A stretch of 64,000 nucleotides of DNA from Larkinella terrae (GTDB lineage: Bacteria; Bacteroidota; Bacteroidia; Cytophagales; Spirosomataceae). Both the position numbers and the translations under genes were made by a program. Below the pieces are notes generated by a model. It saw nothing but the letters and a program-made list of their open reading frames with translations. It was not told the DNA's origin and did no database searches. Within the stretch, counting starts at the first letter, position 1. Each line of letters opens with the position of its first letter. The stretch covers positions 811,004 through 875,003 of the forward strand of contig NZ_WJXZ01000001.1 of assembly GCF_009668025.1 (NCBI RefSeq), given 5' to 3'. Of the stretch, positions 1-17,910 are shown piece after piece.

Positions 1-545
1 ATCGCTTCCTGAAAGCTGGCAACGGCTTTTTCCGGTTCGGAGAGCTCCAGTTGAATCAACCCTCTCTGGTACGAAACGCACGCCAGCGACTGATTGGGCA
101 CTTTTTCGAGTGCCGCCAGCGCCTGTTCGTATTCCTTGTTTCGGCGTAATTCGATTACTGCGTCGATGGCTTCAGGACAGGCGGCTTCGCCCCGGGTTCC
201 CAAATCGGGTTGGTAAAAGTCGTCGTAAAGGTCCTGATTGGAGTTTAACGAGAGCCGGTAAGCTCCCCAGCCTGCCAGTACCAGCACGATCGAAGCCGCA
301 ATTTGGTAAATGAGTCGCTTGCTGATCCATGCCTGCTCCACCAGAACTCTTTCCTTTTTGGACTGGCGCAACTGCTCCAGCGTGGCCAGATGTGCCAGAC
401 TGGTTTCGACTTTCTGAAAAGAGGCCACCCGCTTTTGCAGCGCCGGGTCGGATTGCAATCTGGCTTCAAAAGCCGCCCGGCGGTTTGAAGGAAGGGTGTC
501 GTTCAGATAGGCCAGAATGTCCCGGGTTTCTTTATCGGAGGCCAT
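1..545 (-). CDS. Anti-sigma-like single-pass membrane protein with TPR tail (partial, runs off left edge)
   Basis: The 3' end lies outside the window; about 181 residues are visible. The start is the ATG at 543-545, 11 bp after the stop of the sigma gene, so the two are almost certainly one operon. Residues 1-75 form a charged helical cytoplasmic head (ILAYLNDTLPSNRRAAFE), residues about 79-97 are one membrane helix, and the visible periplasmic part begins a TPR-like repeat (residues about 125-180). There is no zinc-binding HxxxCxxC motif, so it is not a classical ZAS anti-sigma factor. Size, head sequence, helix position and TPR tail all match the protein at 5707-6387, its counterpart in the second module. 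Anti-sigma function is inferred from gene order and topology. The downstream end is unknown. Confidence 0.75.
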   Translation of the reverse strand, partial: MASDKETRDILAYLNDTLPSNRRAAFEARLQSDPALQKRVASFQKVETSLAHLATLEQLRQSKKERVLVEQAWISKRLIYQIAASIVLVLAGWGAYRLSLNSNQDLYDDFYQPDLGTRGEAACPEAIDAVIELRRNKEYEQALAALEKVPNQSLACVSYQRGLIQLELSEPEKAVASFQEA

Positions 546-556
546 GCTTATAAAAA

Positions 557-1573
557 TTAATCATCGGAATTGTCAAGTAAATCTCGAAGGCGACCCATGC
601 AACCTCGGTGTAAAGTTCGAACATACCCGTAGGATCTGCCAATTTTCTCAGCTACTTCCTCCAGCGAATATTCCTCCACGTGATGGTACCAGATGATGGA
701 GGCACAAGGCTCTCCTAGCTTGGGAATCGTGGCCCGTAATTTGTCTATTTCGTAATGGTCATCCGGTTCGGGAGGGGCGTTTTCCAATTCTTCATTCCCA
801 TAAACGGGTCTGACTTTAATATCCAGCCAGCGGAACCGGGCAATATTCATAAAGAAAGAACTCATCAGAGCAGGTTCACCGCCCTTTTTGGTTTTGCTGC
901 GGTCATACCATCGGTAACCGCTCTTCAGATCATAAGGTCCTTTTTTTATTTTTTTAAATAACTCCCTTAACGAGATGGACCAGACCAGCTCGGCATCCGA
1001 TTCCTGTCCGCTGGATAGCGTAACCATGTGCTCGGTCGGGCCGTACGTCCGGTTTTCAAAACCCTGATACGCTTTGGCAAAAACCGGTCCCTTTATTCCT
1101 TTAATCACCTCATGCACGGCCCGTTCCGAAGGGGATTTGCCATTGATTAATTCCCGTAAATCGGTTGCCGACTTGTGCTGTACGTCCAGCCGGGTTCGTT
1201 GCCGGGCCTCACCAAACGCTTCTTCAATTTTAGCAAGCTTTTGCGTCACCTGCTCCCGGAAGTAAAGCCCGTAATCTGCTTCGGTTTCCCTTAATCGGTC
1301 CACAATGGCCGGAATGTCATCCGAGGTCAGCATTTTTTTTATTTCGTCATCCGACTCATCAAACAAGTCGCCGTACCGCGCCACAAAATCGTCAACCCAG
1401 TCCGCTACCGGTTTCTGGCCCCGCTCCAGCAGGTCGGCATAATCCGCGGCCCTTCGATTGGCGTATTCAAACTTTTCAAAAGCTACCCACATGACAAAAG
1501 CCATATAAAACCCCTTATCCTCCTCGACTTTGGCCCCATTTGAAGAAAATAAAAAATCTAAAATTTTGGCCAT
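557..1573 (-). CDS. ECF-like sigma factor with long N-terminal extension
   Basis: A 338-residue protein. The last 60 residues are a sigma-70 region 4 helix-turn-helix (SLEEVAEKIGRSYGYVRTLH). Upstream, around residues 195-255, are region-2-like features, including a segment like the usual YLFTIARNRWLDHLR (FFMNIARFRWLDIKVR). Normal ECF sigma factors are 170-200 residues; here about 150 residues precede region 2. That extension is acidic and helical and resembles no domain I know. The protein should direct RNA polymerase to a small set of promoters. It is followed 11 bp later by an anti-sigma-like membrane TPR protein and is divergent from the TPR-CHAT gene at 1690, so the 116-bp gap probably holds promoters for both. 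Sigma assignment is good; the targets are unknown. Confidence 0.75.
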   Translation of the reverse strand: MAKILDFLFSSNGAKVEEDKGFYMAFVMWVAFEKFEYANRRAADYADLLERGQKPVADWVDDFVARYGDLFDESDDEIKKMLTSDDIPAIVDRLRETEADYGLYFREQVTQKLAKIEEAFGEARQRTRLDVQHKSATDLRELINGKSPSERAVHEVIKGIKGPVFAKAYQGFENRTYGPTEHMVTLSSGQESDAELVWSISLRELFKKIKKGPYDLKSGYRWYDRSKTKKGGEPALMSSFFMNIARFRWLDIKVRPVYGNEELENAPPEPDDHYEIDKLRATIPKLGEPCASIIWYHHVEEYSLEEVAEKIGRSYGYVRTLHRGCMGRLRDLLDNSDD

Positions 1574-1689
1574 TGTTTAGGTGCTTTTTTCCGATTGAAA
1601 GGCACAATATACTTATATTTCCAAAATAGTGACATTTGTTCAACCGCCAGAAAACGAAAGAATAGAAAAAAATTGCACCGGCATTCTTT

Positions 1690-4600
1690 ATGCAGAAATA
1701 CGTACAAAAAGGAATTCTTTCGGGCCTTGTCCTGCTGCTGAGTCCACTGGCCTTTGGGCAGAATTTATTTACCAGACAAGTCAAAGTAATGGCGCTGATC
1801 CGTGATCAGTCTTACGCCGAAGCCCTTTCAATTGCCAAACCAACCGTCGACAGCCTTGAACAACTGCCTGATCATAAAAACTTTTTCTACGTAACCTGGG
1901 CCGGTTTACTGACCAATCTTTACCAATTCAACAACCGGGACGATACTGCAAAGATCTATTCGGAACGTACCGTAGCAGCCGCGGGGCAGCTGTTCGGAAG
2001 AAAGGACTTTCGATACCTTGAACATCTTGAAAATCTGGCCTTTATACATTTAGGACTGGGTGCGCTGCACGATGCCGATTCGCTTTACAACTCGGTGTTG
2101 ACCGCCCGGGCTGAAATTGGGAAAGATAACCAGCGATACGCCCAGACCCTGACCGGGCTGGCGAAAGTCTATTTCACGATGGGGCGCTATGGCGAGGCAA
2201 AACCGCTTTATGAACAATCCCTGGCGATCAGCAAGGCAACGTCGGGTGAAAACACCGGTTCGTACGGAAAAGCCCTCACCCATCTGGCATTTGTCCACAA
2301 AACAATCGGGCAGTCGGCAAAAGCGGAACAGCTCTACCAGCAGGCGCTGGCCATTCATAAAGCAAATCTGGGCAAAGGAATCAGCCCTTCGGCCGAAGCA
2401 CTCAACAAAGCCCTGTATGCCGAAACACTGGATGAATTGGCTTACCTCTATCAGGAATTCCAGCAACACGACCGCGCAGGACTACTTTTTCTGGAAGCGT
2501 TGCAGTTGCAAAAAGAAGCCTTTGGCGAGCGGGATGCCAATTACTTGGCTTCTTTGAATAGTGTGGGAACCTATTACGCATCCACCAAGAATTATACGCT
2601 GGCCGAACAATACTACCGGAAAGCGTTACAGTTGCAAAAGGAGGTATTGGGAACAAAGCATTCGGATTACGCCATTACGCTAAATAGCCTAGGTAACCTT
2701 TTTTTAAATAAAAACGAGTCCGCGAAGGCCGATTCCATTTTTCGGGAAACCACGCGCCTTCATGCCGAGATTTTCGGCAAAAACCACATTGGATACGCAA
2801 TCGCCCTGAATAATCTGGCCCTCACTTCAACCAAATTAAACCGATACCCGCTGGCCGATTCGCTTTTCCGGCAGTCGCTGCAGATTTGCCGGGATTTATT
2901 TGGTTACAATCACATCCGCTACGTCACCTTTTTAAATAACCTGATCCGGCTGCAAACCCTGATGGGAAACGACTCGGCCGCCGATTCGCTGCTGCGCTCC
3001 GGAATGAAAATTGAACTGGCCTTAACCAGACAATACAACCAGTTTTTATCCGAATACGAGAATAATCAGACGCAGCGCCAGTTCACGGCTTTTCACGAAT
3101 TTCAGGCTTCGTTCTACACCCAAAACCGCCAGCGGTTTCCGGAATCCATTGGCGCTTTTCTGAATACGTCCCTGCATCGAAAAGGAAACCTGCTGCAAAA
3201 TCTGGAACTGCTGCGCCAGCGGATCGCCAGCAGTGGCGACACGGTTTTGACCCGCCTGTTTGCCGACTGGCAGAATCAGAAACGACTGCTGGCGCTTTAC
3301 CTGCAACAACCCGCCCGGAAGCGAACGGTCAATCTGGTTCATGAAACGGAAAAAGCCGATCGACTGGAAAAAGAGCTGCTACGCCAGTCGCAGGCTTTCC
3401 AGCAGGCTCAGAATCTGGAAGATATTCAGTGGACCGCCATCCGGGACAGCCTGAAATCGAACGAGGCCGCCATTGAATTTATTCGCTTTGCCCACACCCG
3501 CAATAACCGTCCAACCGACTCCACCCTCTATGCCGCGCTGATCGTTCGGCCCGGTGACAGGCATCCCCGGCTGATTCCGTTGTTTGAAGAACAGAAATTG
3601 AGTTTGCTGTTGCAGAAAGCCCAGAAGAGCAAAACCGGTCCGGGGCAGCTGTACGCCCTGCGCACTTCGACCCTTTTATCCGGTTCGATGGCGGTGGATG
3701 GGCGACAGGTCTATCAACTGGTCTGGAAACCGCTGATGCGTCATCTGGATGGTGTCAATACGGTTTATTTTTCGCCCGCAGGGCTGTTACACCGGATTTC
3801 GTTTGCGGCCCTGCCCGTTTCTTCGGATTCGCTCCTGTCCGAACGCTTTACGCTCCACCAGCGGTTTAACCTCCGCAGCCTGGTCGAAAAAATCCCGCCC
3901 CTATCGCCCCAGAACGAATGGCAGGTGATTGCCTTTGGCGGAGTAACCTACAAAGCAAAACCAGACAACAACCCTCCAGCGCCCAAAACCGCTCCGGTTT
4001 CGGGACCACTGATGGCGTACCAACTGCCGAAGCCTGCCCAAAAACGTGGGAACCGGGGCGATTTGCTGATCGATCTGCCGGGCACCTTGGAGGAAATCAA
4101 CGCCATCGATTCGAGTCTTCGCCATCGCACCCGGGAAGTAAAGTTGTTTCAGGGTTGGGATGCTACTGAAGAAGCCTTTAAAGCTATTGACCAAAAGCGC
4201 TCCCCGACGGTCATTCACCTGGCTACCCACGGTTTTTTCTTTCCTGCGCCCCAGCCAAAGCCGGACCAGCCGGTAGCCGTGGCGAGTCCGTCGAGCGCAA
4301 ATACCTGGCGGGGCGCGGAAGATCCGCTGCTGCGGTCGGGGCTGCTCCTGGCGGGTGCCGAGCGGGCCTGGCAGGGACAATCATCGCTCGAGGGAGCGGA
4401 AGACGGTATTCTGACCGCTTACGAAATTGCCCGCATAAACCTGACGGACACGGAATTAGTGGTTTTGTCGGCCTGCGAAACGGGCTTGGGCGATGTGGTG
4501 GGCAGCGAAGGCGTTTACGGACTCCAGCGGGCCTTCAAGCTGGCGGGTGCCCGGCGGCTGATCATGAGTTTATGGAAAGTGCCCGACAAGGAAACCACCG

Positions 4601-4737
4601 AGTTCATGAACGAATTTTACCAGCAGTGGCAACCGGGCGTTCAGGCGAATCAGGCTTTTCGGAATGCGCAGCGGACGCTCCACCGGCGTTACCCGAAGGA
4701 GCCCCGGAAATGGGCGGCTTTTACGCTGGTGGAATAA
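1690..4737 (+). CDS. Secreted TPR-CHAT (caspase-like) protein, module A
   Basis: A 1015-residue protein with a signal peptide (residues 1-24, ending AFGQ), so it should act in the periplasm or at the surface. Residues about 40-470 are tandem TPRs of the 42-residue kind (repeated ALxLQKExxG..xxYAxxLNxLG). A helical linker follows, and residues about 690-1015 are a CHAT domain, a clan CD cysteine-peptidase fold. The catalytic pair is intact: His847 in HLATHGFF and Cys929 in LSACETGLG, with the family's SEGVYGLQRAF and ARRLIMSLWKV motifs after it. It has no C-terminal membrane helix, unlike the CHAT protein of module B. It is divergent from the sigma gene at 557-1573. Substrate unknown; cleavage of the neighbouring membrane TPR protein is a guess from context. 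Confidence 0.88.
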   Translation: MQKYVQKGILSGLVLLLSPLAFGQNLFTRQVKVMALIRDQSYAEALSIAKPTVDSLEQLPDHKNFFYVTWAGLLTNLYQFNNRDDTAKIYSERTVAAAGQLFGRKDFRYLEHLENLAFIHLGLGALHDADSLYNSVLTARAEIGKDNQRYAQTLTGLAKVYFTMGRYGEAKPLYEQSLAISKATSGENTGSYGKALTHLAFVHKTIGQSAKAEQLYQQALAIHKANLGKGISPSAEALNKALYAETLDELAYLYQEFQQHDRAGLLFLEALQLQKEAFGERDANYLASLNSVGTYYASTKNYTLAEQYYRKALQLQKEVLGTKHSDYAITLNSLGNLFLNKNESAKADSIFRETTRLHAEIFGKNHIGYAIALNNLALTSTKLNRYPLADSLFRQSLQICRDLFGYNHIRYVTFLNNLIRLQTLMGNDSAADSLLRSGMKIELALTRQYNQFLSEYENNQTQRQFTAFHEFQASFYTQNRQRFPESIGAFLNTSLHRKGNLLQNLELLRQRIASSGDTVLTRLFADWQNQKRLLALYLQQPARKRTVNLVHETEKADRLEKELLRQSQAFQQAQNLEDIQWTAIRDSLKSNEAAIEFIRFAHTRNNRPTDSTLYAALIVRPGDRHPRLIPLFEEQKLSLLLQKAQKSKTGPGQLYALRTSTLLSGSMAVDGRQVYQLVWKPLMRHLDGVNTVYFSPAGLLHRISFAALPVSSDSLLSERFTLHQRFNLRSLVEKIPPLSPQNEWQVIAFGGVTYKAKPDNNPPAPKTAPVSGPLMAYQLPKPAQKRGNRGDLLIDLPGTLEEINAIDSSLRHRTREVKLFQGWDATEEAFKAIDQKRSPTVIHLATHGFFFPAPQPKPDQPVAVASPSSANTWRGAEDPLLRSGLLLAGAERAWQGQSSLEGAEDGILTAYEIARINLTDTELVVLSACETGLGDVVGSEGVYGLQRAFKLAGARRLIMSLWKVPDKETTEFMNEFYQQWQPGVQANQAFRNAQRTLHRRYPKEPRKWAAFTLVE

Positions 4738-4764
4738 AAAAAGTCCCGGCCTGCAGACCGGAAC
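4736..4764 (-). terminator. Rho-independent terminator for the small lipoprotein gene
   Basis: Read on the minus strand, an imperfect stem (4743-4764) is followed by a run of seven T (4742-4736). It lies just downstream of the minus-strand lipoprotein gene and abuts the stop of the convergent CHAT gene. Confidence 0.6.
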
Positions 4765-4792
4765 TTAACCTAAAACGTACGTACGTATTTCT

Positions 4793-4996
4793 TCATTTTC
4801 CTCCCCCGTGCCCGCCTTTTGGCGGTTTGGCCGACGGATTGTCCGGATCATCCGGATCGTCGGCAGCGTGCGTTGACGATGGAGATTGCGGAATCAGTTC
4901 TTCCTGGCAGGAAGTCAGGGTGAGTGTGCCAAAAATCAGCATGGCAAGCCCAAGGCGGCCAAAAAGTGTTTTGGCTGCAAAAGTTACATTTTTCAT
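4793..4996 (-). CDS. Small lipoprotein with acidic, proline-rich tail
   Basis: A 67-residue protein with a lipoprotein signal: basic start, hydrophobic core and lipobox LTSC, giving a mature protein of only about 37 residues rich in Asp, Pro and Gly (DDPDDPDNPS, then GGHGGGK). A terminator follows it, which supports it being a real gene. It sits between the two sigma/CHAT modules, divergent from the sigma gene at 5171. No function recognised; the low-complexity tail suggests a surface or periplasmic lipid-anchored peptide. Confidence 0.55.
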   Translation of the reverse strand: MKNVTFAAKTLFGRLGLAMLIFGTLTLTSCQEELIPQSPSSTHAADDPDDPDNPSAKPPKGGHGGGK

Positions 4997-5170
4997 TTTT
5001 GATCGAGATTAAAGTGATGGCTTTAACCCGATGGGCCCCTCGGATCGTCGTCCAGTACCCTTCATCGTCGGCGAGCGGGCGGATTGTCAGATGGGGAGAA
5101 AAATTTTTTGTAACTTTTTTGAAGGCTGCTGGCAGTAACCTTTTGAACGAGTCGTTGTCTGTTCTGCATT

Positions 5171-5710
5171 ATGCCCAGATTTACTGAAAGCGAGGTGGTG
5201 ACCGCCTATAAAACCGGTCTTCAAATTGAAAGCGTTACCGAGTATATGTATAGCACGTACTACCCCACGATCCGCGAACTGTGTCGTCGGCTGGAAGGGA
5301 ATGTTCAGGATTGTGAAGACCTGTTCCAGGAAACGCTGCTTATTTTTATCGAGCTGGTTCAGGCCGGTCGCTACAACCCACACGGGAGTGCTACGCTGAA
5401 AACGTATCTGTACTCCATTGCCCGAAACGTCTGGTCCGGGCGCTGGAAACGCTCCGTCCGTCAGCAGAATTGGGAGAAAAATTTTGCGGACACTTTTTAT
5501 CCGGAGCAGGACACGATTGACCTGTACATCAATCAGATGACAGCGATGCAAATGCTGAATCAGCTCGGTGAGCCCTGCCGAACGATTATCAGCCGGTATT
5601 ACATCGAAGGCTTCAGCCTGGATGAAATTGCCAGGGAACTGGATTTGAATGAACCCACGGTGCGGCAACGAAAATTTCGCTGTCTGAAAAAACTAAGAGA
5701 TATGCTATGA
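5171..5710 (+). CDS. ECF sigma-70 factor, module B
   Basis: A 179-residue protein of normal ECF length. Region 2 covers residues about 22-95, with the core-binding EDLFQETLLIF and the -10-binding YLYSIARNVWSGRW. Region 4 covers residues 122-179, with the helix-turn-helix FSLDEIARELDLNEPTVRQR. It overlaps the next gene by four bases (ATGA), so the two are translationally coupled, as is usual for a sigma/anti-sigma pair. It is the counterpart of the longer sigma at 557-1573; region 4 of both contains a LGEPC segment before the helix-turn-helix. Autoregulation is plausible but no duplicated promoter motif could be confirmed. Confidence 0.9.
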   Translation: MPRFTESEVVTAYKTGLQIESVTEYMYSTYYPTIRELCRRLEGNVQDCEDLFQETLLIFIELVQAGRYNPHGSATLKTYLYSIARNVWSGRWKRSVRQQNWEKNFADTFYPEQDTIDLYINQMTAMQMLNQLGEPCRTIISRYYIEGFSLDEIARELDLNEPTVRQRKFRCLKKLRDML

Positions 5711-6387
5711 CATCCGACAACGACATGAACGAAATGGATCAGATTGAAGCCTACTTAGCGGGTCGGCTTGCGCCAGCGGAGCGGCAGCAGGTAGAGGAAA
5801 AAATTCAGTCTGATTCCGGTTTTTCGAAAAAAGTGGAAAGTATGCGACAAGTCACTCAGCTGTTGCGGAGAGCCGATATCCAACAGCGTACCCAGGTCAC
5901 CCTACAAAACCTGTATCGGCAACGTCGTCAGCGCAGCCGTCGCCTGACGTACTGGTACGGAAGCGGTTTGACCACTCTGGCCGCCTGTCTGGCCTTCGCG
6001 TTTTATCTGGCGTTTACCGACGTGCATCTGCCGGTTATTGAAGACGATTTGCTGATCGTTCGTGGCCGGGAGATGGAAGAGCGCGCCCTGACCAGTGAGC
6101 AGTCGGCCTATGGAAGTTTGCTGGCCGGGCAGCAGGCTCTCAAACAGGGGAATTACCTGAAAGCCACTAATTATCTGGAAAAAACGCTCCGGTTTACCGA
6201 TCTGCGGCCCTACTACCGGGAAGCCGCCCAGTGGTACCTGGTGCTGGCCTATCTTTACAGCGATCAGCCCCGGCGGGCGGAGGGGTATTATCAGCAGCTC
6301 CAAACGACCGATCAGCCGCAATATGTGGTCAACTCCATCGACCGCTGGAAAGTATATGTTCAGATTCAGCGCCAGAAGCTGTTGTAA
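5707..6387 (+). CDS. Anti-sigma-like single-pass membrane protein with TPR tail, module B
   Basis: A 226-residue protein. Residues 1-80 are a cytoplasmic helical head (IEAYLAGRLAPAERQQVEE) ending in a strongly basic stretch (RQRRQRSRR), a stop-transfer signal. Residues about 84-103 are one membrane helix, and residues about 125-220 form TPR-like helices outside the cytoplasm. It overlaps the sigma gene by four bases. It is the full-length equivalent of the partial protein at 1-545. It lacks a zinc-finger anti-sigma motif, so the assignment is by position and topology. Its 3' end overlaps the 3' end of the convergent CHAT gene by 22 bp. Confidence 0.8.
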   Translation: MTSDNDMNEMDQIEAYLAGRLAPAERQQVEEKIQSDSGFSKKVESMRQVTQLLRRADIQQRTQVTLQNLYRQRRQRSRRLTYWYGSGLTTLAACLAFAFYLAFTDVHLPVIEDDLLIVRGREMEERALTSEQSAYGSLLAGQQALKQGNYLKATNYLEKTLRFTDLRPYYREAAQWYLVLAYLYSDQPRRAEGYYQQLQTTDQPQYVVNSIDRWKVYVQIQRQKLL

Positions 6388-9197
6388 CGAAGGAACAACA
6401 AAACTCCGGCAATCAGCAGCGCAGCACAACTGCCGGTCATGACCCAGTGATCCGGTTGAGGCCACCGAAAACCAGGTTGATAAAGCGGCTCATTGGCGCC
6501 AATGACCACGAAATGGGCCCAGAAATACGGGTGGTTGTACGGACGACTCCATTCCAGTTTAAAAAAATCGGTCCGGGCTTTGCGCAGGGCCGTCGCCGGC
6601 GAATCGCCTTCCTGCAAATATGCGTAAGTCCGCCTGACCAGAAAGGCCGACGTCCGGTCGTGCGCATTCCACAAGGTGCTGATCGTGGTCGGGCAGCCCG
6701 CGTAGGCAAACGCGCGGGCCAGGCTCATCATGCCTTCCGAGCGGTAGAGTTTGCCGTTGCCTCCTTCACAGGCGCTTAGCGCGACCAGGCGAACATGGCG
6801 CAGATTCATCTGGCTGATTTCGTGGGCGTATAACCGGTGCTTCCTGGTGGTATCGTTGGGGTAAAAAGCAATATAGGAATGCATCGGCTCTTCGCTGTCG
6901 AGATGCGCGTGCGTCGACAGAAACCAGATGGAGTGGTTTTTCTGCGCGTTCAGGAAATTAGGGCGGGTTGCCTGTTCGCTCATCAATTGCCGGGTTGATA
7001 AATTGGCAAACTCGCCCCCGCTGGCGGAGAGGGTTTCGTACCCGAAATGATCGGAAATCGTGGGCTGAAGATCCCGGTTAAACGGAGCAATCGCCAGGAC
7101 ATCATCGGCGGAAATTCCCCCCGGCGAATGAGAAGTACCCCCCAGCGAAGTGGCGGTATAGACGTACCGGATGGTGTGCTGAAAGCCAATGTAATCGTTG
7201 ACGGCTCGACCGGTTTCAAACACATCAATCGGCAATCCATCCAACACCCCGCCCGTGTTGACGACCCAGGATTCTTTGGATTCGATTTCCGAAAGCAACG
7301 GAGCAATAAACCACTCAAAAGCCTGAAGCGCAAACGGTGTTCCGGTATACTGACTAATGCCGGGGTGGCGCCGGAGCGACGAGCGCAGGGTGTCGAGAGT
7401 CCGAAAAAGGGTCAGCGAATCGACCGGAATCGTTTTCCAGCTACTCCGCTGGTGCGTAAGGGCAAAAGCGTGCAATTTGCCGTGGCTATAGTTATAGGTA
7501 ATATAGGCCGCCGTTTCCGGCAATCGGGCCTGAACCTGCTGAACGGTAACCGGTTGGGTCAGGTATTTGGAGTAGTAATAATCCGGATACTTTTGCTCCC
7601 ACTGCCGGAGCAGCAGGTAATGCTGGTGCAGCCGGTCGCGCTCCCGGGCGAGCAAACTGCGCTGGTGTTCGGGCGTGGGATTATCGAGCAGCTGCGCCCG
7701 GACGGACGACAGTTCCTGGCGGATTTCCTGATCGAGCCGGAGTTGCTCGGCGGGCAGGTACTGCGGTTTCAGGGTGGCTTCGGCGTAAAAATCCTGGAAA
7801 CTGGTGGCGCGGCCCTGTTCGAGCAGCGTAAAAGCCATTCCGAAAGCCGACTCGGTCCGGTTTTGGCGATACAGTTGATAAGCCGCTTCCTGCGCCTGCT
7901 GGTACAACGGCAGAACGGTTTCGCTCAGATACAGTTTATCTTCCAGCACACCCAGGTGTTTCCGGGCCTGGTGAAACACATCAATGGCGCGTCGGTACGT
8001 CTGGAGGGCATCTTCCCATCGCTCCTGCCGGGTCAATTGATTGCCTTTCAGGAACAGTACCTCCACGGCCAGTTTTTCGTCCAGCACCTGATCGGTTGGC
8101 GGATTTCCCAGCTTATCCAGTAAAAAAGACGGTTTCAGGACCGACGCCAGGGCACGTTGCCAAAAGGTCATTCCGGTCTCCGGTTGCCCCTGCGCCATTT
8201 TGATTTTCCCTTTGACCAGCCAGCTCGTTGCCAGTATCCGGCCCTTACCGCCGTATTTCAGCGTGTAGGTCGAAACCGCCTTATTCAGGTAAAGCTCCGC
8301 TTCTTTTTCCCGACCGATTTCCCAGTAACACAAACCCAGGTGATTGTATAAATTAACCACCATCCGGGTGTCATTTTGGCTGGAATCCCGTTCGGTCAGG
8401 CGGGTATAAAGCCGGTACGACATCTGTAAATAGCGCAGGGCCGCCGGGTAGTGCTGCTGGCTCAGCAAATTCCAGCCGATGCCGGAATACATTCGGGCCA
8501 GTTGCAGATCCACCAGGGAATAATTGCGAATGCCTTCCCGACGCAGGGCCAGGGCCCCGGCAAAGTTTCCGACGGCTTCGTATTGCCCCGCCAGCACGTT
8601 ACAGATGATGGCCACCTCACTTTTGATGTGAAAATCACGCGCCAGTTGCAAGGCTTTTAGAGCCAGGACCTGACTCACCGAAAACCGCCCCGCCGATTCG
8701 TGCAGCATGGCCTGGTTGCTGTAATGGTAGATCACGTAATCGGTAATTTCCCGGTTCAGCTGCGGATGCTTCTCAATCATCCGATCCGCTTTTTCAAAGA
8801 AGTGGGCCGACGAAGTATAGTCGTTGAGCTGACGATACAATTCGCCCAAGCTGGAATGGACTTTAAAAGCCGTTGAGTCGGCAACGGGCGTTTTTTTCAG
8901 CATGTCAAGCCCCTGCAAACACCGCGAAATACCGGCCTGATAGTTTCCCGCCAGGTAATCCATCGAACTCAAATCGACCAGCAGTGTAATGCTCAGCTCC
9001 GGTTGCTGCCGGGTCCGGCTGAGCTGGTAGGCTTGCTGGTAATAGCGGGTCGCTTCGTCATACCTCCCCAGATCATACAGCCGTTCCGCCTGATTTCGGA
9101 GCCGATGAATGGAGGCCGGTTGCGCCCGGGCTGAGTCCGTAAAGCCCTGCAAGCCAATCCATAACCAGCAAAAAAGATGAAAGTGCCGGGCCGACAT
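6366..9197 (-). CDS. Membrane-anchored periplasmic TPR-CHAT protein, module B
   Basis: A 943-residue protein with an N-terminal signal peptide (residues 1-26, ending ARAQ), TPR repeats over about 30-430, a coiled-coil linker (about 450-540) and a CHAT domain over about 600-905. The catalytic His is residue 763 (LSTHAH, with a second His at 765) and the Cys is residue 810 (ALSACEGG), followed by YRSEGMMSLARAF. A C-terminal hydrophobic segment (about 917-937) should anchor the protein in the inner membrane with the protease in the periplasm. That would put it next to the TPR tail of the neighbouring anti-sigma-like protein. Convergent with that gene, with 22 bp overlap. Proteolytic activity is expected from the intact dyad but not shown. 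Confidence 0.87.
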   Translation of the reverse strand: MSARHFHLFCWLWIGLQGFTDSARAQPASIHRLRNQAERLYDLGRYDEATRYYQQAYQLSRTRQQPELSITLLVDLSSMDYLAGNYQAGISRCLQGLDMLKKTPVADSTAFKVHSSLGELYRQLNDYTSSAHFFEKADRMIEKHPQLNREITDYVIYHYSNQAMLHESAGRFSVSQVLALKALQLARDFHIKSEVAIICNVLAGQYEAVGNFAGALALRREGIRNYSLVDLQLARMYSGIGWNLLSQQHYPAALRYLQMSYRLYTRLTERDSSQNDTRMVVNLYNHLGLCYWEIGREKEAELYLNKAVSTYTLKYGGKGRILATSWLVKGKIKMAQGQPETGMTFWQRALASVLKPSFLLDKLGNPPTDQVLDEKLAVEVLFLKGNQLTRQERWEDALQTYRRAIDVFHQARKHLGVLEDKLYLSETVLPLYQQAQEAAYQLYRQNRTESAFGMAFTLLEQGRATSFQDFYAEATLKPQYLPAEQLRLDQEIRQELSSVRAQLLDNPTPEHQRSLLARERDRLHQHYLLLRQWEQKYPDYYYSKYLTQPVTVQQVQARLPETAAYITYNYSHGKLHAFALTHQRSSWKTIPVDSLTLFRTLDTLRSSLRRHPGISQYTGTPFALQAFEWFIAPLLSEIESKESWVVNTGGVLDGLPIDVFETGRAVNDYIGFQHTIRYVYTATSLGGTSHSPGGISADDVLAIAPFNRDLQPTISDHFGYETLSASGGEFANLSTRQLMSEQATRPNFLNAQKNHSIWFLSTHAHLDSEEPMHSYIAFYPNDTTRKHRLYAHEISQMNLRHVRLVALSACEGGNGKLYRSEGMMSLARAFAYAGCPTTISTLWNAHDRTSAFLVRRTYAYLQEGDSPATALRKARTDFFKLEWSRPYNHPYFWAHFVVIGANEPLYQPGFRWPQPDHWVMTGSCAALLIAGVLLFLRYNSFWR

Positions 9198-9322
9198 TCC
9201 TTAGTGAAGAAGTAATTGGACTAGAAAGATACAATCGTGACCAATTGGTAACAAGCCTTCCCCCATAAAGTGTAAAAATCGCCGGTTGCTGTCACGGAAC
9301 CGGCGACAGAACAAAGTAAGAG

Positions 9323-9469
9323 TAAGAGACTGTCTAAAATTTATAATTTTCCTTTTCCACATTGCCCCCAACCCACTAAAGGGGGCATTAATCGGCATTT
9401 CAAAGCCCCCTTTAGGGGGTTGGGGGCAGACCGAAGAAAGGAAGAATCTGAATTTTAGACAGTCTCTAA
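9323..9469. mobile_element. MITE-like element, 16-bp terminal inverted repeats, TAA target duplication
   Basis: The ends are perfect inverted repeats: GAGACTGTCTAAAATT (9326-9341) and its complement (9451-9466). They are flanked on both sides by TAA (9323-9325 and 9467-9469), which reads as a 3-bp target duplication. Inside is a second inverted repeat of 24 bp with one mismatch (9363-9386 and 9405-9428) made of blocks of C and G. No coding sequence. A 3-bp TNA duplication is typical of some IS5-group elements, so an IS5-type transposase acting in trans is a reasonable guess. It lies about 95 bp upstream of the first gene of the 9564-17085 operon. Confidence 0.7.
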
Positions 9470-9563
9470 AGCCACCAAAAAAATTTACAGAAGGAGATGA
9501 CAATCGGGGGTAATCGGCCCGATTAAGGGGTACAAACGCATCATCCATTTAACGAATCGAACT

Positions 9564-10001
9564 ATGTCGAAACTCAATCACCCCACGGAAGGCAGTTCGT
9601 TGCGGTTCCGGCTTTGCCTGTTGCTGATGGCCGGAATCGGGATTGCCAGTTGGCTACGTCCGGCTTCATCGGGCTCAAAACCGCCCGCAACGGCGGCTAA
9701 AACCACCGAAGCCTTTACGCCCGTTCAGCAGGAAAACCGAAACTTCTACGGCGCGATCGGTTCGCTGGCCGAGCTGATGTTCGGGACCCCGGCCCAGCGC
9801 AAGTCGGCCTATGATGAAGAAGAGCGGGCCCGCCGGGACAGCGATGCGGCTCTGGATGAACGGCTCGGGCGGGAGCGGGAAGAACGCTACAAACAGGAAG
9901 CGGAAGAACGCTACCAGGACCATCAGGACTACCTGCAGCAGCAAAAAGAGCAAAACGACCAGTATTACGAACAGAAAAAAGCGGAAGAAAGCACCTATTA
10001 A
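9564..10001 (+). CDS. Membrane-anchored coiled-coil protein, first gene of envelope operon
   Basis: A 145-residue protein with one hydrophobic segment near the N-terminus (residues about 17-34) followed by a Ser/Pro/Ala-rich linker. A long charged helix (residues about 83-142) rich in Glu, Arg, Gln and Tyr is probably a coiled coil. No family recognised. It is the first of seven same-strand genes with gaps of 2-27 bp. The next gene starts 4 bp after its stop. Its likely location is the inner membrane with the coiled coil in the periplasm, or the reverse; topology cannot be decided by eye. Confidence 0.7.
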   Translation: MSKLNHPTEGSSLRFRLCLLLMAGIGIASWLRPASSGSKPPATAAKTTEAFTPVQQENRNFYGAIGSLAELMFGTPAQRKSAYDEEERARRDSDAALDERLGREREERYKQEAEERYQDHQDYLQQQKEQNDQYYEQKKAEESTY

Positions 10002-10005
10002 CGCC

Positions 10006-10593
10006 ATGTCTATTTTAACCAAACCCGTCAAATGGGTACAACGGCCTATTGTGGGCCTGATTCCCCGGCCCGTGGAGCTTTTCCTGGGAGCGGTTCTGCT
10101 TCTGGTAGTGCTCAAATGGGTGCTGGGTCCCGGTGGTGGTCAAAGTCCCCGACAGGTTGCCCGGGCCGTTGCCGAAGGGATGATTACGGTTCTGAAGGAC
10201 GACCAGAATTTGCGGCAGGGCGTCCTGTTTTTCACCAAAGACGGCCAAAACCACGATGGCACCGTCGAAATCCGGGACCTCGGGGCCGGATTGGGCGGAC
10301 TGCTGCTGGGAGGAGGGCTGAACCGCGTTGGCGGAAGCGTCTATTTCCACGGTTACCGCCATTCATCGGGCGTAACGCTCACGGGCGGCCCGCTTGATCT
10401 GGAGTTCCGGGCTGGTTCTCAGGAAAATGGAGGGGCCAAACAAGCCGTCTTCCGCATGCAGGGAACCCTTCAGGTGGCGGAAATCGACCAGCCGGTTACC
10501 GTGCAGCTCGAATTCGTGAGCGAACAGGATACGTACCAGATTGACGCCCTGAAGGGTCAGATCACCATTAACCAACAAACGACAACCCTCTGA
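10006..10593 (+). CDS. Single-pass membrane protein of unknown function
   Basis: 195 residues from the ATG at 10006, 4 bp after the previous stop; an in-frame extension back to 9811 is rejected because it would run through the preceding gene and has unnatural composition. Residues about 23-41 are a membrane helix. The rest looks like a soluble beta-rich domain with a Gly-rich loop (LGAGLGGLLLGGGLNRVGG). No family recognised. It is followed 2 bp later by the next gene, so co-translation is likely. Confidence 0.75.
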   Translation: MSILTKPVKWVQRPIVGLIPRPVELFLGAVLLLVVLKWVLGPGGGQSPRQVARAVAEGMITVLKDDQNLRQGVLFFTKDGQNHDGTVEIRDLGAGLGGLLLGGGLNRVGGSVYFHGYRHSSGVTLTGGPLDLEFRAGSQENGGAKQAVFRMQGTLQVAEIDQPVTVQLEFVSEQDTYQIDALKGQITINQQTTTL

Positions 10594-10595
10594 TT

Positions 10596-11159
10596 ATGAA
10601 CCAGTCGACATTTATTACTCCGACTCCTACGCCTTCCGCACTGTTCGGAACGCCGGGCAACGATTTATCGCTGGCGGCCATCGGCGGAATGGTCAGCAGT
10701 CTGCTCGTGCTGCTCTACGACATCGCCCCCCTGCCACCGTTTCTGTTTCTGGTGCTTGTTCCTGCGGGACAGGGGCTACTCTACTGGGGCTTTCATCAGG
10801 TAGGCCGGTTTTATCACCTTAAGTGGGTGCTGCGCGGAGCCCGACTGATGCTGCTGGGCCTGCTGATGTCGTGGGTTTCGTCCCTGACCGGCTGGTCGCT
10901 GGCAAACTGGGTCTTTAAGTTTGCTTTCTGGGTGAGCCCCTTTCTGGTTTTCGTCGATTTGTGGCCCATGCGCCAGCTGACCAATCGCCCACTGGCTACA
11001 GCACTGGTTATCAGCCAGATTGCCTTTAACGCCGGTAATCATCTTAAATTCGTTTCACCCGACTGGACCGGTTTCTGGGAAGCCTGCACCACGGCATTAA
11101 CCGCCTGGTTTCTGTACGATGTTGCCGAGCGGTTTTCCCGTACTCATCCTGCCAACTAA
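10596..11159 (+). CDS. Polytopic inner-membrane protein
   Basis: A 187-residue, strongly hydrophobic protein with four or five membrane helices, a Thr/Pro-rich N-terminus and a short polar C-terminus. It starts 2 bp after the previous stop. No transporter or enzyme motif was recognised. Within the operon it is the only polytopic protein and may serve as the inner-membrane anchor for the other products. Confidence 0.72.
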   Translation: MNQSTFITPTPTPSALFGTPGNDLSLAAIGGMVSSLLVLLYDIAPLPPFLFLVLVPAGQGLLYWGFHQVGRFYHLKWVLRGARLMLLGLLMSWVSSLTGWSLANWVFKFAFWVSPFLVFVDLWPMRQLTNRPLATALVISQIAFNAGNHLKFVSPDWTGFWEACTTALTAWFLYDVAERFSRTHPAN

Positions 11160-11186
11160 AATCTGTCATCCCAACCACTTTCTCTT

Positions 11187-12086
11187 ATGCGCTCATTTTT
11201 TTTAACTGCCCTTCTGGGCCTGTTCGTTCATGCCGCCCTGGCTCAAACGCCCCGAACGGACGTATTACACAAACTGGATCGTTCGACGCTGAACGTCAAA
11301 GTAGACGAAGTGACGGAAACGGATGTGGTTTATTTTGAAGCCACGGCACCAACCGTCCGGAAGATGCTGCCCAAAAATGGGCTCTGGAAACTTGTTTTTG
11401 CGGATGGCAGCACGGAGGTTTTCAATCAGCCCACCGAGCTTCCTGCCGCCCCGCCCCTCGAATCGGTAGCCCAACGGAAAGACAGTACATTCAGAAAACC
11501 GCCTACGAGTCCGGGGTATCGCATCAATTTGACGGTTGGAACGGAAGTGTCTTACTTCCCCGCGGGACTCAACAAAGATTGGGTAGACGATTCGCTGGGC
11601 TACGGAATGGATCAGAACCTCGGTTTCAGCGTTCGTTTCGACTACCGGTTTATTCGCCCCCTGGCCGCTTCGCTGACGGTGGGCTATTCGCAGTGGGAAT
11701 TGCTCCGGCGCTACACCCAGAACGGCAGCGATCAGTACCAGGAAACCGTCACCATGCGCCGGATTCCGCTGCAGGCCGGTTTGAAAATATACGTTGCCAA
11801 CCATTTTTTCCTCCTGCCTTCCGGCGGCATTAACCTCCTGACCATCAAACGGAAAGCCAGCGAGACCCACCCGAATCCCACGGCAGAAAATACGTCATCC
11901 ACGCCGATTACGTACGGGGCCAGCCTGGGTTACGAATTTCATGCCGGTCGTTTTCTGGTCGATCTGAGCGGCCAGTATCAACTGCTGAATATCCGCCAGA
12001 CCACCAGCGCGCCCGGTTCGGCCACGCAGCAGAAGGTGCAGTTTGCGGGGCTGCGATTGGGTCTTGGCTTCAGTACAAAAAAATAA
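11187..12086 (+). CDS. Outer-membrane beta-barrel protein with N-terminal beta module
   Basis: A 299-residue protein with a signal peptide (residues 1-20, LAQ). Residues about 28-82 form a small beta module (DRSTLNVKVDEVTETDVVYF, then WKLVFADGS) resembling modules in the protein at 13149. Residues about 110-299 have alternating strands typical of a small outer-membrane barrel (VGTEVSYFPAGL, FSVRFDYRFI, ASLTVGYSQW, FAGLRLGLGFS). Part of the seven-gene operon; 27 bp from the previous gene. Probably an eight- to ten-strand barrel; function unknown. Confidence 0.75.
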   Translation: MRSFFLTALLGLFVHAALAQTPRTDVLHKLDRSTLNVKVDEVTETDVVYFEATAPTVRKMLPKNGLWKLVFADGSTEVFNQPTELPAAPPLESVAQRKDSTFRKPPTSPGYRINLTVGTEVSYFPAGLNKDWVDDSLGYGMDQNLGFSVRFDYRFIRPLAASLTVGYSQWELLRRYTQNGSDQYQETVTMRRIPLQAGLKIYVANHFFLLPSGGINLLTIKRKASETHPNPTAENTSSTPITYGASLGYEFHAGRFLVDLSGQYQLLNIRQTTSAPGSATQQKVQFAGLRLGLGFSTKK

Positions 12087-12104
12087 CATTCAACCCTCTT
12101 ACTC

Positions 12105-13124
12105 ATGAAATCCCTACCATTTTCCTCGTTTTATACGGTTCTGGCTACGTTGCTCATTGGATTGGCCGCGTTGAGTTGCCGAAAAGAAGTCGAAATTGTT
12201 CTGCCGGGTCCGCTGATCGAAGGCCAGCCTTCGGCGGCTTCGATGGCCGGAAAACCGCTCAGCACGGCGGGCAGCGCCTTCAAATTTACGGTCGATCTGT
12301 ACGTGGTCAACAAGAGTGGCCGGTACGTCTCCGGTTTGAGCAAACAGCATTTCAGCATTCCGGACAACACGGTCAGCCAGCGGAAGTACACGCTCGATGA
12401 CGTCAAAACCGCCAGTCTGGTCAACAAACCGGGTGGTTATTCCGCGATGATCCTGCTCGACCAGTCGGGTAGTATTCTGACCACCGACCCCAATGACCTG
12501 CGCATTGAGGGCAGTAAAATTTTTCTGGATTACCTGGGGAAAGACGATTACGTATCGCTGGTGAGTTTTCCGACCAACTCATCTGATTCCCGGGCCAAAT
12601 ACCACAAAGGATTTTCGCGGGATATCAACGCCATGAAAGCGTCGCTGGATACGCTGGCACAAACCGAGCGCGGGGGCACTCCGCTGTACAAGACGGCTTT
12701 TGAAGTCACCAATTACACCGCGGCCAATGCGAAAACCGTCAACAAAGCCGTGATTGTCTTTACCGATGGGGCCGATACGGACGGGGGTAAATCGTTGCAG
12801 AACGTCATCGACAACGCCGTACAGAAAAGCATTCCGATTTTTACAGTCGGCCTGAGCAGCGGGGTTGATGTGAACGTCCTGTCGCAGATGGCCAACGAAA
12901 CCGGCGGTGCCTTTTTCTGGGCTAAAGACGCCAAACAGTTGATCACCTCCTTCGGAACGCTGGGAAATCTGCTGCGGGGAACCGCTCAGGTGTACCGTAC
13001 ATACTGGACCGTCACCCGCGCCACCGGCACCTGGCGGGCGGGCGACGTGGTCACCGGCACGATCAAGGTCGACCTGAAAAATGGTGAAATCATCGAAGTT
13101 CCCTTCTGGGTCAAGGTTCAATAA
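12105..13124 (+). CDS. VWA-domain lipoprotein
   Basis: A 339-residue lipoprotein: signal ending in lipobox ALSC with the acylated Cys at residue 25. Residues about 110-295 are a von Willebrand factor A domain with a complete metal-binding site: DQSGS (from Asp119), the Thr in RGGTPLY and the Asp in VIVFTDGAD. Such domains bind protein partners through a divalent metal. Its site in the operon, between a barrel protein and a periplasmic protein, suggests a scaffold on the periplasmic face of a membrane. No MoxR ATPase or Bat-type genes are next to it, so this is not the usual aerotolerance operon. Confidence 0.87.
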   Translation: MKSLPFSSFYTVLATLLIGLAALSCRKEVEIVLPGPLIEGQPSAASMAGKPLSTAGSAFKFTVDLYVVNKSGRYVSGLSKQHFSIPDNTVSQRKYTLDDVKTASLVNKPGGYSAMILLDQSGSILTTDPNDLRIEGSKIFLDYLGKDDYVSLVSFPTNSSDSRAKYHKGFSRDINAMKASLDTLAQTERGGTPLYKTAFEVTNYTAANAKTVNKAVIVFTDGADTDGGKSLQNVIDNAVQKSIPIFTVGLSSGVDVNVLSQMANETGGAFFWAKDAKQLITSFGTLGNLLRGTAQVYRTYWTVTRATGTWRAGDVVTGTIKVDLKNGEIIEVPFWVKVQ

Positions 13125-13148
13125 AACTCCTCCTTTTTCGCTACTGTT

Positions 13149-14285
13149 ATGAATTCTCTATTTCTCATCTTACTCAGTACCTTCCTGCTGCTGGCGGGAA
13201 ATCTCCGGGCGCAGCATACCGTTTACCTGACCGATCAAACCCGCGTCGAAGGCAAAATCACCGAAATTACCGACGAAAAAGTGGGTATTCAGGTGGCCAA
13301 AGGTCAGTCGTCGGTCAAATATTCGTATAAACTCGACCGGGTGCAATTGCTCTTCAACCAAACCGGTTCGTATCTCTGCCCGACCGAATTAGGTGCCTTA
13401 CTGCCCGGGGAGCGTTCCCGCCGGATCACGGATTTCATGGCGGACACGTCAGCCACCGATCCCGATCGTCCGGATGTTATCCTGAAAAAATCGTCCGACC
13501 TCATCGTCGCCCGCATCTCGAACGAGAATCAGGAGACCATTGATTACCAGACGATAGACGGAAAAACCGCTTCCATTTCCAAAACCGAGGTAGCCGCGGT
13601 GATCTACCGCGATGGTCGGCATGCCGTTCTGGCCGAGGCTGCCCTTCTGTGCGACCATCACCAGCTCGTGCAGCAGAGTCGGCAGAAACCGTCGCCAGCG
13701 GGTGCGGTTACGACCTCGGCTCCGAGAAATCCGCCCGTTCAAACCGACTCCTGGAGTGCCCAGGCGGTTGCCATCCTGAAACTATCCGAAACGGAATACC
13801 AGCAGTACCGCGACCGGGCCATCCGCAAAGTGGAAGAATTTGCGACCTACCTGGGGGTTATCACCGACAAAACGCTGGACGCCGATACCAAAAACAAAGC
13901 CATTGACGAAGCCTGTAAGATGTTTCGGGCGGATGCCACCATCGAAGTTTCGTCCATGACGCGCAGCGGAACCACCAATTCCTACGGGATTCGGGATTAT
14001 TTGACCCGCTTGAAAATGCTTCCGTACCACACCATTTCCGTTCAATGGTCGAACGTGGAATACGTGCAGGAGTTGCAGCAACGCGCCGACAATAACTATT
14101 ACGGACTCATCAAAGGCGAACAGCGGTTTTCCGGTTTCGGGAAGGACGGCCAGCTCCAGTATGGGGACATCACCGAGAAAAGCGTGGAAGTGATGCTTCA
14201 GGCGTATCAAAAGCAGAAAGAAGGTTCGGTTCAGAATCTGTGGGATATTTTGCTGGGCAACATTGGGGTATCGGCAACGCGTTGA
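13149..14285 (+). CDS. Secreted protein with two beta modules and an alpha/beta C-terminal domain
   Basis: A 378-residue protein with a signal peptide (1-21, LRAQ). Residues 24-73 (VYLTDQTRVEGKITEIT) and 109-158 (VILKKSSDLIVARISNEN) look like two copies of one small beta module, which also occurs at the N-terminus of the barrel protein at 11187. Residues about 200-370 form a separate domain (RKVEEFATYLGVITDK, FRADATIEVSS, YLTRLKML) resembling the N-terminal domain of the next gene's product. No named family recognised. It is followed 4 bp later by the TPR gene. Confidence 0.75.
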   Translation: MNSLFLILLSTFLLLAGNLRAQHTVYLTDQTRVEGKITEITDEKVGIQVAKGQSSVKYSYKLDRVQLLFNQTGSYLCPTELGALLPGERSRRITDFMADTSATDPDRPDVILKKSSDLIVARISNENQETIDYQTIDGKTASISKTEVAAVIYRDGRHAVLAEAALLCDHHQLVQQSRQKPSPAGAVTTSAPRNPPVQTDSWSAQAVAILKLSETEYQQYRDRAIRKVEEFATYLGVITDKTLDADTKNKAIDEACKMFRADATIEVSSMTRSGTTNSYGIRDYLTRLKMLPYHTISVQWSNVEYVQELQQRADNNYYGLIKGEQRFSGFGKDGQLQYGDITEKSVEVMLQAYQKQKEGSVQNLWDILLGNIGVSATR

Positions 14286-14289
14286 CGCC

Positions 14290-17085: not shown

Positions 17086-17117
17086 ACGCGGACCTTGCCG
17101 GTAACATCACTTAGTAG

Positions 17118-17148
17118 TTACACAGGTCATTCTTTTACTTTATATTTG
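17118..17148 (+). promoter_or_regulatory. Bacteroidota-type promoter for the 17176 gene
   Basis: TATATTTG at 17141-17148 is a perfect TAnnTTTG -7 box. The -33 position has TTA (17118-17120), one base from TTG, with a 20-base spacer. The start codon is 27 bases after the -7 box. Confidence 0.5.
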
Positions 17149-17175
17149 AAGATAAATACCTAAATAACTATTCAA

Positions 17176-17910
17176 ATGCTGAGAAAATCACTAATTATCG
17201 TAACGCTCTGGTTCAGTGTAAGCGGAATGGTAGCCGCACAAACGTCGGACGAGGTAGTCGGAAAATACATTCAGGCGATGGGTGGTGCGGATAAACTGGC
17301 TAATTTAAAAACGCTGAAAATGAGTGCCGCTTTTCAAATGGCAGGCATCGAGGCTTCCCAGAATACGACCGTTATTAACAATAAAGCGTTCAAACAGGAA
17401 GTAGTTTTTCAGGGAATGTCAGTCGTGCAGTCGGTGCTGGACGGCCAGGGATGGGCCATTAATCCGTTAATGGGTCAGAAAGACCCCACCGAACTACCCA
17501 AAGAGGCCATCGATATGGTTGCCGACCAAATGGACCTGACCGGGTCGCTGTTTCAAAGCAAGGAAAAAGGCAACACGGTAGAGCTGGCGGGCAAAGAAAC
17601 GATTGGTTCAGCAGAAACTTATAAATTGACCGTCACCAAAAAAAATGGCCGGACTGAAATTTATAACCTGGACACGAAAACGTATTTACCCGTTAAAATC
17701 ACATCGGCGCAGAAAGTGTCGGGGCAGGAATTTAAACAGGAAATTACCACTTCTGATTACCAGAAAATTGATGGATTAGCCTTTCCATTTACCCTATCAA
17801 TCAAAAGTGCCGCGATACCGGGTGGTGGGGCAATGCTTGTAAAAGTTACCAAAATTGAAGTCAATCCGGCCGTCGACGAAGCGATCTTCAAAATGCCCGC
17901 AAAAAAATAA
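17176..17910 (+). CDS. Secreted LolA-fold-like protein
   Basis: A 244-residue protein with a signal peptide (residues 1-22, VAAQ). The mature part has the pattern of Bacteroidota outer-membrane lipoprotein-sorting-like proteins: EVVGKYIQAMGGADKLANLKTL at the start, then antiparallel strands (ETYKLTVTKKNGRTEIYNLD, YLPVKI, YQKIDGLAFPFTL) and a C-terminal VDEAIFKMPAKK. Such proteins have a LolA/LolB-type half-barrel that binds lipid; actual lipoprotein sorting is not implied. It has its own promoter and is separate from the operon upstream. Confidence 0.72.
   Translation: MLRKSLIIVTLWFSVSGMVAAQTSDEVVGKYIQAMGGADKLANLKTLKMSAAFQMAGIEASQNTTVINNKAFKQEVVFQGMSVVQSVLDGQGWAINPLMGQKDPTELPKEAIDMVADQMDLTGSLFQSKEKGNTVELAGKETIGSAETYKLTVTKKNGRTEIYNLDTKTYLPVKITSAQKVSGQEFKQEITTSDYQKIDGLAFPFTLSIKSAAIPGGGAMLVKVTKIEVNPAVDEAIFKMPAKK

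Follow-up and report, generated by a model that had tools for sequence, protein, structure and literature searches.

TPR-CHAT proteins beside ECF sigma factors and membrane anti-sigma-like proteins in Larkinella terrae: candidate site-1 proteases matched to a linker arginine

A protease of the CHAT family with tetratricopeptide repeats (TPR) that cleaves the inhibitor of a sigma factor is already known: the part of the published report that deals with this pathway describes the cleavage of Csx30 by Csx29, which in the model of its authors relieves the inhibition of CASP-sigma (PMC10028731). Two PDB entries, 8rot and 8rw5, are titled as structures of a transmembrane anti-sigma factor, DdvA, and give the deposited molecule as a CHAT domain-containing protein. 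For the ECF54 group of extracytoplasmic function (ECF) sigma factors, the relevant part of a review reports neighborhoods with genes for CHAT, subtilase and carboxypeptidase proteins and proposes regulation by proteolysis without an anti-sigma factor (PMC8999054), and part of another report deals with neighborhoods that combine a caspase, an ECF sigma factor and a TPR protein (PMC8195603). Here we analyze two gene modules, A and B, at the left end of a 64,000-nucleotide stretch of the contig NZ_WJXZ01000001.1 from Larkinella terrae, hereafter the window; each of them encodes an ECF-type sigma factor, a putative membrane anti-sigma factor and a large TPR-CHAT protein. The sequence-only reading of the window supposed that a signaling chain of this kind had not been described, a view that the published Csx29/Csx30/CASP-sigma pathway, the deposited DdvA and the CHAT genes noted beside ECF54 do not sustain.

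We consider it fairly probable that each module is an envelope switch, in which the CHAT protein acts as a site-1 protease that cuts its anti-sigma factor after an arginine of the juxtamembrane linker and so frees the sigma factor. The evidence computed here consists of the genes themselves, their linkage, the catalytic dyads of the CHAT proteins, the conserved linker Arg, and the covariation of this Arg with a Glu of the CHAT domain. As the Arg is conserved, matched to the protease and situated just outside the membrane, we take it that the protease probably cuts the inhibitor and thereby turns on gene expression.

The genome (7.85 Mb) contains 80 ECF genes over the cut-off, so that neighborhood alone proves little, and the association was therefore measured across the phylum. 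CHAT proteins were found in 101 of the 198 sampled genomes of Bacteroidota. From among the matches listed, 80 regions were picked by rank and taxonomy and not by their neighbors (40 covering the same-order and same-class rows, one of these with two CHAT genes; 32 first-of-genus regions, for which G104 was passed over because of its position at the end of a contig; and 8 second copies). One CHAT gene was counted per region, and region L125 is without a CHAT protein according to the model, which leaves n=79. ECF genes are present within 5 kb of 43 of these 79 CHAT genes, whereas the density of ECF genes in the individual genomes predicts 5.46 (p 4e-29). Of 43 genera, 24 have one or more ECF-linked CHAT genes (4.96 expected), and an anti-sigma gene recognized by our own model lies within 5 kb of 40 of the 79. 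CHAT proteins with a C-terminal membrane helix show an ECF or anti-sigma link in 32 of 41 cases, versus 14 of 38 for the others (Fisher p 2.6e-4). In a hand-picked set of genomes, an anti-sigma homologue (E<=1e-15) was detected in 29 of the 36 genomes that have CHAT proteins and in 6 of the 24 that do not. Named plasmids carry the trio as well: pAT7 (L282), which has only 15 kb, and pAT1 (L283) of Aureibacter tunicatorum are both annotated with a sigma factor, a hypothetical protein and a CHAT protein in succession. A scan of named genomes with CHAT B returned 10 loci, all cyanobacterial. A CHAT gene beside genes for a sigma factor and its membrane-bound inhibitor is a widespread partnership in Bacteroidota, which also recurs within the L. 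terrae genome and, with the Emticicia plasmid described below, on three named plasmids; the suggestion of the sequence-only reading that the partnership is kept is borne out. At five loci (L081, L122, L128, L130 and L131) a helix-bearing CHAT gene faces, in convergent orientation, an anti-sigma gene without an adjacent ECF gene; the anti-sigma products are probably orphan anti-sigma factors with a sigma partner encoded elsewhere.

The anti-sigma model and alignment were built from 38 linked proteins, with the seeds L062, L105 and L109 left out. The alignment reveals a single near-invariant residue, an Arg, in the otherwise variable linker between the membrane helix and the TPR, followed mostly by Gly, Ser, Ala or Asn, and kept also in proteins whose periplasmic part is otherwise different (L124, L074, L089, L116). 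The set was enlarged to 121 candidates; L009 and L158, whose CHAT genes are 5-11 kb away, were left out of the Arg counts. Outside the Met and DPGL groups, Arg occupies the column in 61 of 68 linked anti-sigmas, the remainder being 5 gaps (YRD type) and 2 Lys. In the Met-type group, to which a further module of this genome (contig C22) belongs, the linker has a Met followed by Asp, Gly, Ser or Asn (TMD...DSLQTGI); the linker DPGL...M characterizes a third, small group. In CHAT-less genomes Arg is absent from the aligned place in 5 of 5 usable homologues (L146/L176, with Lys, L148/L177 and L149/L178 by alignment, L174 and L175 by eye), of which the first 3 genomes were chosen as known matches; a sixth match, L179, is without a linker. 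Sigma and anchor pairs found mostly without CHAT genes had been named by the sequence-only reading as an argument against a functional unit, and here the picture is mixed: 26 of the 121 candidates have no CHAT gene in the fetched stretch, and anti-sigma genes exist in CHAT-less genomes too, where the 5 usable ones lack the aligned Arg.

For the CHAT side, 82 paired domains were compared, with pairs more than 5 kb apart and CHAT proteins shorter than 700 aa left out. The Met-type and DPGL-type classes had been assigned on the basis of the anti-sigma proteins, ahead of any inspection of CHAT columns; one pair, L159, was relabelled afterwards. The His/Cys dyad is kept in all 82 linked CHAT domains. 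The column of Glu729 of CHAT B (E729) contains Glu in 55 of 56 CHAT proteins with Arg-type partners and 5 of 5 with YRD-type partners (together 60/61), and a non-acidic residue in all those with Met-type (16/16), DPGL-type (3/3) and Lys-type (2/2) partners. The sole Arg-type exception is L159, which reads VTRQ and has a very divergent CHAT; with L159 relabelled, E729 is the only column of 399 that splits Arg from non-Arg partners fully, and otherwise 1 of 82 rows is discordant. Judging from the order of structure elements, E729 sits where Arg-specific proteases of clan CD keep the acidic residue that binds P1, the residue preceding the cut. In a tree of CHAT domains calculated with the E729 column removed and L159 relabelled, Glu was lost 4 times and the P1 class changed 4 times, in the same lineages. 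Three loci retrieved later, with alignment by eye, agree with the pattern (the slash marks the proposed cut): pAT7 with QFR/N and Glu, pAT1 with FR/S and Glu, and the plasmid pEMTOL03 of Emticicia oligotrophica with DM/S and Val.

According to the mechanism we propose, the partner of the ECF sigma factor would be an anti-sigma factor that crosses the inner membrane once, has its head in the cytoplasm and its TPR in the periplasm, and keeps the sigma factor at this membrane. The TPR-CHAT protease, secreted in module A or anchored in the inner membrane in module B, would sense a signal through its own TPRs, dock on the TPR of the anti-sigma factor and cut the flexible periplasmic linker after Arg119 (B) or Arg118 (A), with Glu729 or Glu802, respectively, serving as the S1 residue. 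After this site-1 cut, a site-2 protease and cytoplasmic proteases would complete the breakdown of the anti-sigma factor and thus free the sigma factor, as in the DegS/RseA/RseP pathway; in module A a neighboring C14 caspase might make the cut as well, or in place of the CHAT protein. The AlphaFold model of anti-sigma factor B is consistent with what a DegS/RseA-type scheme requires: it predicts a single hydrophobic helix (88-104) and, between it and the TPR, a juxtamembrane stretch of low confidence (residues 105-119, pLDDT <50), which ends with Arg119. We lean slightly towards the broader proposal that secreted or membrane-anchored CHAT proteins, which are caspase-like, are widespread site-1 proteases of anti-sigma factors in bacterial envelopes, and that co-changing pairs of cut site and S1 residue (Arg with Glu, Met with a non-acidic residue) insulate parallel modules from each other. 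If this is true, many CHAT proteins of Bacteroidota gain a substrate, a cut site and a job, that of relaying an envelope signal to transcription, and the modules would provide a compact bacterial example of a protease and its cut site changing together. The prediction is sharp, as it concerns one bond, one Glu and one Cys.

The same linkage would arise if the CHAT protein were an output of the switch, i.e. if the sigma factor, released by some other signal, transcribed the CHAT gene as an envelope effector (for remodelling, defence or self-killing) within an autoregulated neighborhood. ECF sigma factors commonly control neighboring genes, many of the linked CHAT genes have a tandem or divergent orientation relative to the sigma gene, and the CHAT genes of L081, L122 and L130 adjoin an anti-sigma gene with no ECF gene within 5 kb. 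However, for a mere output one would expect neither that a linker Arg is conserved nor that a single CHAT residue varies along with it, and CHAT B is convergent with its sigma pair, its start codon lying 4.0 kb from that of sigma B, hence we regard this explanation as unlikely. The Glu/Arg covariation also argues against another protease as the sole cutter, as does the retention of the His/Cys dyad in every linked CHAT. We thus think it quite unlikely that the linker is cut by a C14 caspase, a subtilase or a DegS-like enzyme while the CHAT protein only scaffolds or regulates, even though the gene that comes next after anti-sigma A encodes a Peptidase_C14 protein, caspase-like genes are seen by eye in L263, L262 and L253 (the last with no CHAT gene in view), the C22 module of this genome includes a subtilase, and the relevant part of one report has metacaspases cutting after Arg/Lys (PMC4357240). 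The Pfam scan of proteins encoded at positions 1-17085 of the window found no C14 domain, and the other modules were not searched systematically for it. A further point in favor of another cutter is that Arg is present at the aligned column in 16 of the 26 anti-sigmas with no CHAT gene in the fetched stretch. This led us to reject the Arg as a mark of CHAT adjacency alone; its retention there needs either a CHAT protein acting in trans or another protease, and such anti-sigmas may be cut in trans.

Shared ancestry could mimic the match of Glu and Arg if co-inherited pairs had simply diverged together; the Met-type CHAT proteins do form one clade of 16, and the test on independent pairs offers too few of them. 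Against this, one column in 399 (after one relabelling) shows the split, at the very place that holds P1 in Arg-specific clan CD proteases, Glu was lost in four places on the tree, and the three later loci fit, making such a by-product improbable. That two abundant gene families lie next to each other by chance, with no functional link, is hardly credible: the density of ECF genes allows random neighbors (~0.07 per CHAT gene), but the linkage exceeds its expectation as stated above, 43 of 79 versus 5.46, and the arrangement is repeated in several families.

Several observations nonetheless weigh against CHAT proteins as site-1 proteases, in addition to the Arg of anti-sigmas with no CHAT in view. 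The support is computational, and cleavage is deduced rather than observed. No ECF gene lies within 5 kb of 36 of the 79 sampled CHAT genes; this includes 12 of the 41 helix-bearing ones, 9 of which are also without an anti-sigma gene. A few of the 43 ECF matches are not partners, namely a housekeeping-type sigma factor in L064 and generic ECFs in L059 and L062. The Arg of anti-sigma B is shifted by ~7 residues with respect to its four nearest relatives, which have YR/DD or YR/QD, and the Met/DPGL group is mixed, with M[DGSN] in 18 of 25 linkers and Leu-Asp in several second copies. The L159 pair was re-read after the result was known, and the Lys-type pair is without Glu, contrary to simple charge logic. 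Finally, the test on independent pairs finds only 2 pairs on well-supported branches and 4 on all branches, which puts significance out of reach.

The six open reading frames of the two modules were confirmed where the sequence-only reading had placed them, as was the gene order it gave (Table 1). In module A, sigma A and anti-sigma A are on the minus strand and CHAT A is divergent, with ~116 bp between the starts; in module B the sigma gene shares its last 4 bp with the anti-sigma gene, and CHAT B is convergent and overlaps the end of anti-sigma B by 22 bp. Pfam identified the CHAT domain (PF12770, cut-off 24) with high scores (CHAT A: 203.7 bits, E 5.5e-60; CHAT B: 141.5 bits, E 4.8e-41), together with TPRs in both proteins. 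The dyad residues of CHAT B come after strands 757-762 and 804-809 of the core sheet. Both proteins would be exported, given the signal-peptide-like N-terminal segments read by eye; the earlier description of the CHAT proteins as secreted thus agrees with their N-termini, with the correction that CHAT B also ends in a membrane helix. Sigma B is over the Pfam cut-off for regions 2 and 4 (PF04542 and PF08281, E 6.8e-12 and 5.7e-12; TIGR02937, 87.5 bits). For sigma A, region 4 alone reaches the Pfam cut-off, barely (E 2.6e-05), and TIGR02937 gives 29.9 bits versus a cut-off of 42.9, so that it was rejected as a classical ECF; since pairwise blastp aligns its residues 155-333 with sigma B (25% over 188 columns, E 1.4e-10), we read it as a divergent ECF that is extended by ~150 aa at its N-terminus, region 2 being assigned through this alignment only. 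No Pfam family was matched over cut-off by the extension, and blastp found no match between sigma A and the sigma A-like protein (393 aa) of locus L010. The NCBIfam anti-sigma model NF052375 matches the two anchors with 29 and 22.2 bits (E 9.5e-07 and 1.1e-04), far under its cut-off of 100; both resemble membrane-bound anti-sigma factors that carry a TPR at the C-terminus, in keeping with the membrane-held sigma factor of the sequence-only reading.

Table 1. Features of modules A and B (window coordinates; the slash in a linker marks the proposed cut)
Feature	Position	Strand	Description
Anti-sigma factor A	1..545 in window; full gene -171..545	minus	238 aa; truncated by the window edge; 118 bits to the anti-sigma model
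Anti-sigma A layout			Predicted topology: cytoplasmic head, single membrane helix, periplasmic TPR
Arg118 codon, anti-sigma A	192..194	minus	Linker DLGTR/GEAA; proposed P1; conserved column
Sigma A	557..1573	minus	Divergent ECF-type, 338 aa; sigma-like part ~ residues 155-333
CHAT A	1690..4737	plus	TPR-CHAT protease, 1015 aa; signal-peptide-like start (by eye); without C-terminal membrane helix
Glu802 of CHAT A	4093..4095	plus	Equivalent of CHAT B E729
Catalytic dyad of CHAT A	His847 4228-4230; Cys929 4474-4476	plus	
Sigma B	5171..5710	plus	ECF sigma factor, 179 aa, regions 2 and 4
Anti-sigma factor B	5707..6387	plus	Head, membrane helix 88-104, low-confidence linker 105-119, TPR-like helices from 134
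Arg119 codon, anti-sigma B	6061..6063	plus	Linker LIVR/GREM; proposed P1
CHAT B	6366..9197	minus	TPR-CHAT protease, 943 aa; signal-peptide-like start (by eye); C-terminal membrane helix
C-terminal hydrophobic membrane helix of CHAT B	6372..6455	minus	Residues 915-942
Cys810 of CHAT B	6768..6770	minus	Catalytic
His763 of CHAT B	6909..6911	minus	Catalytic
Glu729 of CHAT B	7011..7013	minus	Proposed acidic S1 residue; short helix 727-730, taken as alpha1

A and B had been presented as two copies of one module that were not a recent tandem duplication. The latter part is correct, as they are too different for such an origin (identity of 35% over 111 aa for the CHAT proteins and of 25% each for the sigma factors and the anchors). 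The former is not: judged by their sequences, they are distant paralogues with CHAT proteins from different subfamilies and not two copies of one cassette. CHAT A is closer to another CHAT protein encoded ~12.6 kb away (42.6% over 874 aa) than to CHAT B; a second CHAT of the A kind is encoded left of the window, 10.7 kb from anti-sigma A. The genome has 8 CHAT matches, of which 6 are large TPR-CHAT proteins in 3 neighborhoods, each with ECF and anti-sigma-like genes. One neighborhood is that of the window, on contig C1. Contig C6 (L010 4635-14395) carries a B-type trio of ECF, anti-sigma and convergent CHAT with a membrane helix, as well as a divergent ankyrin-TPR-CHAT gene and an A-like sigma pair. 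On contig C22 (L011 8516-15231) there are an ECF gene, two tandem anti-sigma-TPR genes with Met- and Leu-type linkers, a subtilase gene and a CHAT gene, whose product has a weak C-terminal membrane helix.

As to the surroundings, the protein encoded directly after anti-sigma A, left of the window, combines a Peptidase_C14 caspase with DUF4384 according to Pfam (L009 15845-17899). Module B is flanked by a plus-strand gene run (9564-17910) that begins with a small protein and goes on with an outer-membrane protein (OMP) beta-barrel (11187-12083), a VWA-domain protein (12105-13124), a large TPR protein (14263-17085) and a LolA-like protein (17176-17907). Small C14 caspases encoded elsewhere in the genome (L276 6084-8061, L278 2569-8777) appear by eye in clusters with PP2C, FHA and protein kinase genes, the L276 cluster additionally having a generic ECF gene and a short anti-sigma-like gene. 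In the other loci with caspase-like genes, the gene order read by eye is ECF, anti-sigma, caspase-like and CHAT in L263, ECF, anti-sigma, CHAT and caspase-like in L262, and ECF, anti-sigma and caspase-like, without CHAT, in L253.

With respect to described systems, open full-text literature searched for CHAT together with sigma and anti-sigma terms yielded no envelope CHAT/anti-sigma pair; other CHAT roles were not searched, and most subscription papers are outside this scope. A search of PDB sequences with the domain of CHAT B alone gave no match, and Foldseek reported Csx29, with its TPR-CHAT fold, as the best match of CHAT B, followed at ranks 2 and 3 by DdvA with a low TM-score (0.24-0.25); the His/Cys region of the DdvA CHAT domain matches by sequence (E 5.7e-11). 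In contrast to DdvA, which by the titles of its entries is anti-sigma factor and CHAT protein in one, modules A and B have separate genes for the two; comparison of the CHAT (A4) and anti-sigma (A3) profiles by hhalign found only a 17-column match at the membrane helices (probability 1.2). Separase, another member of clan CD (C50), is a eukaryotic cohesin protease and not an envelope protein. CHAT and subtilase proteins conserved in ECF neighborhoods are shared with ECF54, but the example in the corresponding part of the review is a Geodermatophilus protein and the mechanism put forward is proteolysis in which no anti-sigma factor takes part (PMC8999054), and here each sigma factor has an anti-sigma-like partner. 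The modules resemble the type III-E CRISPR CASP/Craspase systems in that a TPR-CHAT protease adjoins an ECF sigma factor (CASP-sigma) and its inhibitor (Csx30), as given in the part of the report that covers them (PMC10028731). That part has Csx29 activated by RNA through Cas7-11 and does not describe Csx30 as a membrane protein, whereas here the CHAT protein has a signal-peptide-like start, the inhibitor would span the membrane, the proposed site is a conserved Arg, and no Cas protein was matched among the 20 proteins scanned, no genome-wide search having been made. If our proposal is true, the Csx29 and DdvA routes that link CHAT proteins to sigma control join into one theme. The modules would be analogous to the sigma-E pathway of RseA, DegS and RseP in having a single-pass anti-sigma factor with a periplasmic sensor part and a site-1 cut outside the membrane, and M50 peptidases of the site-2 type are encoded in this genome; they would differ from it in that the site-1 protease is a CHAT cysteine protease predicted to cut after Arg, and not a PDZ serine protease.

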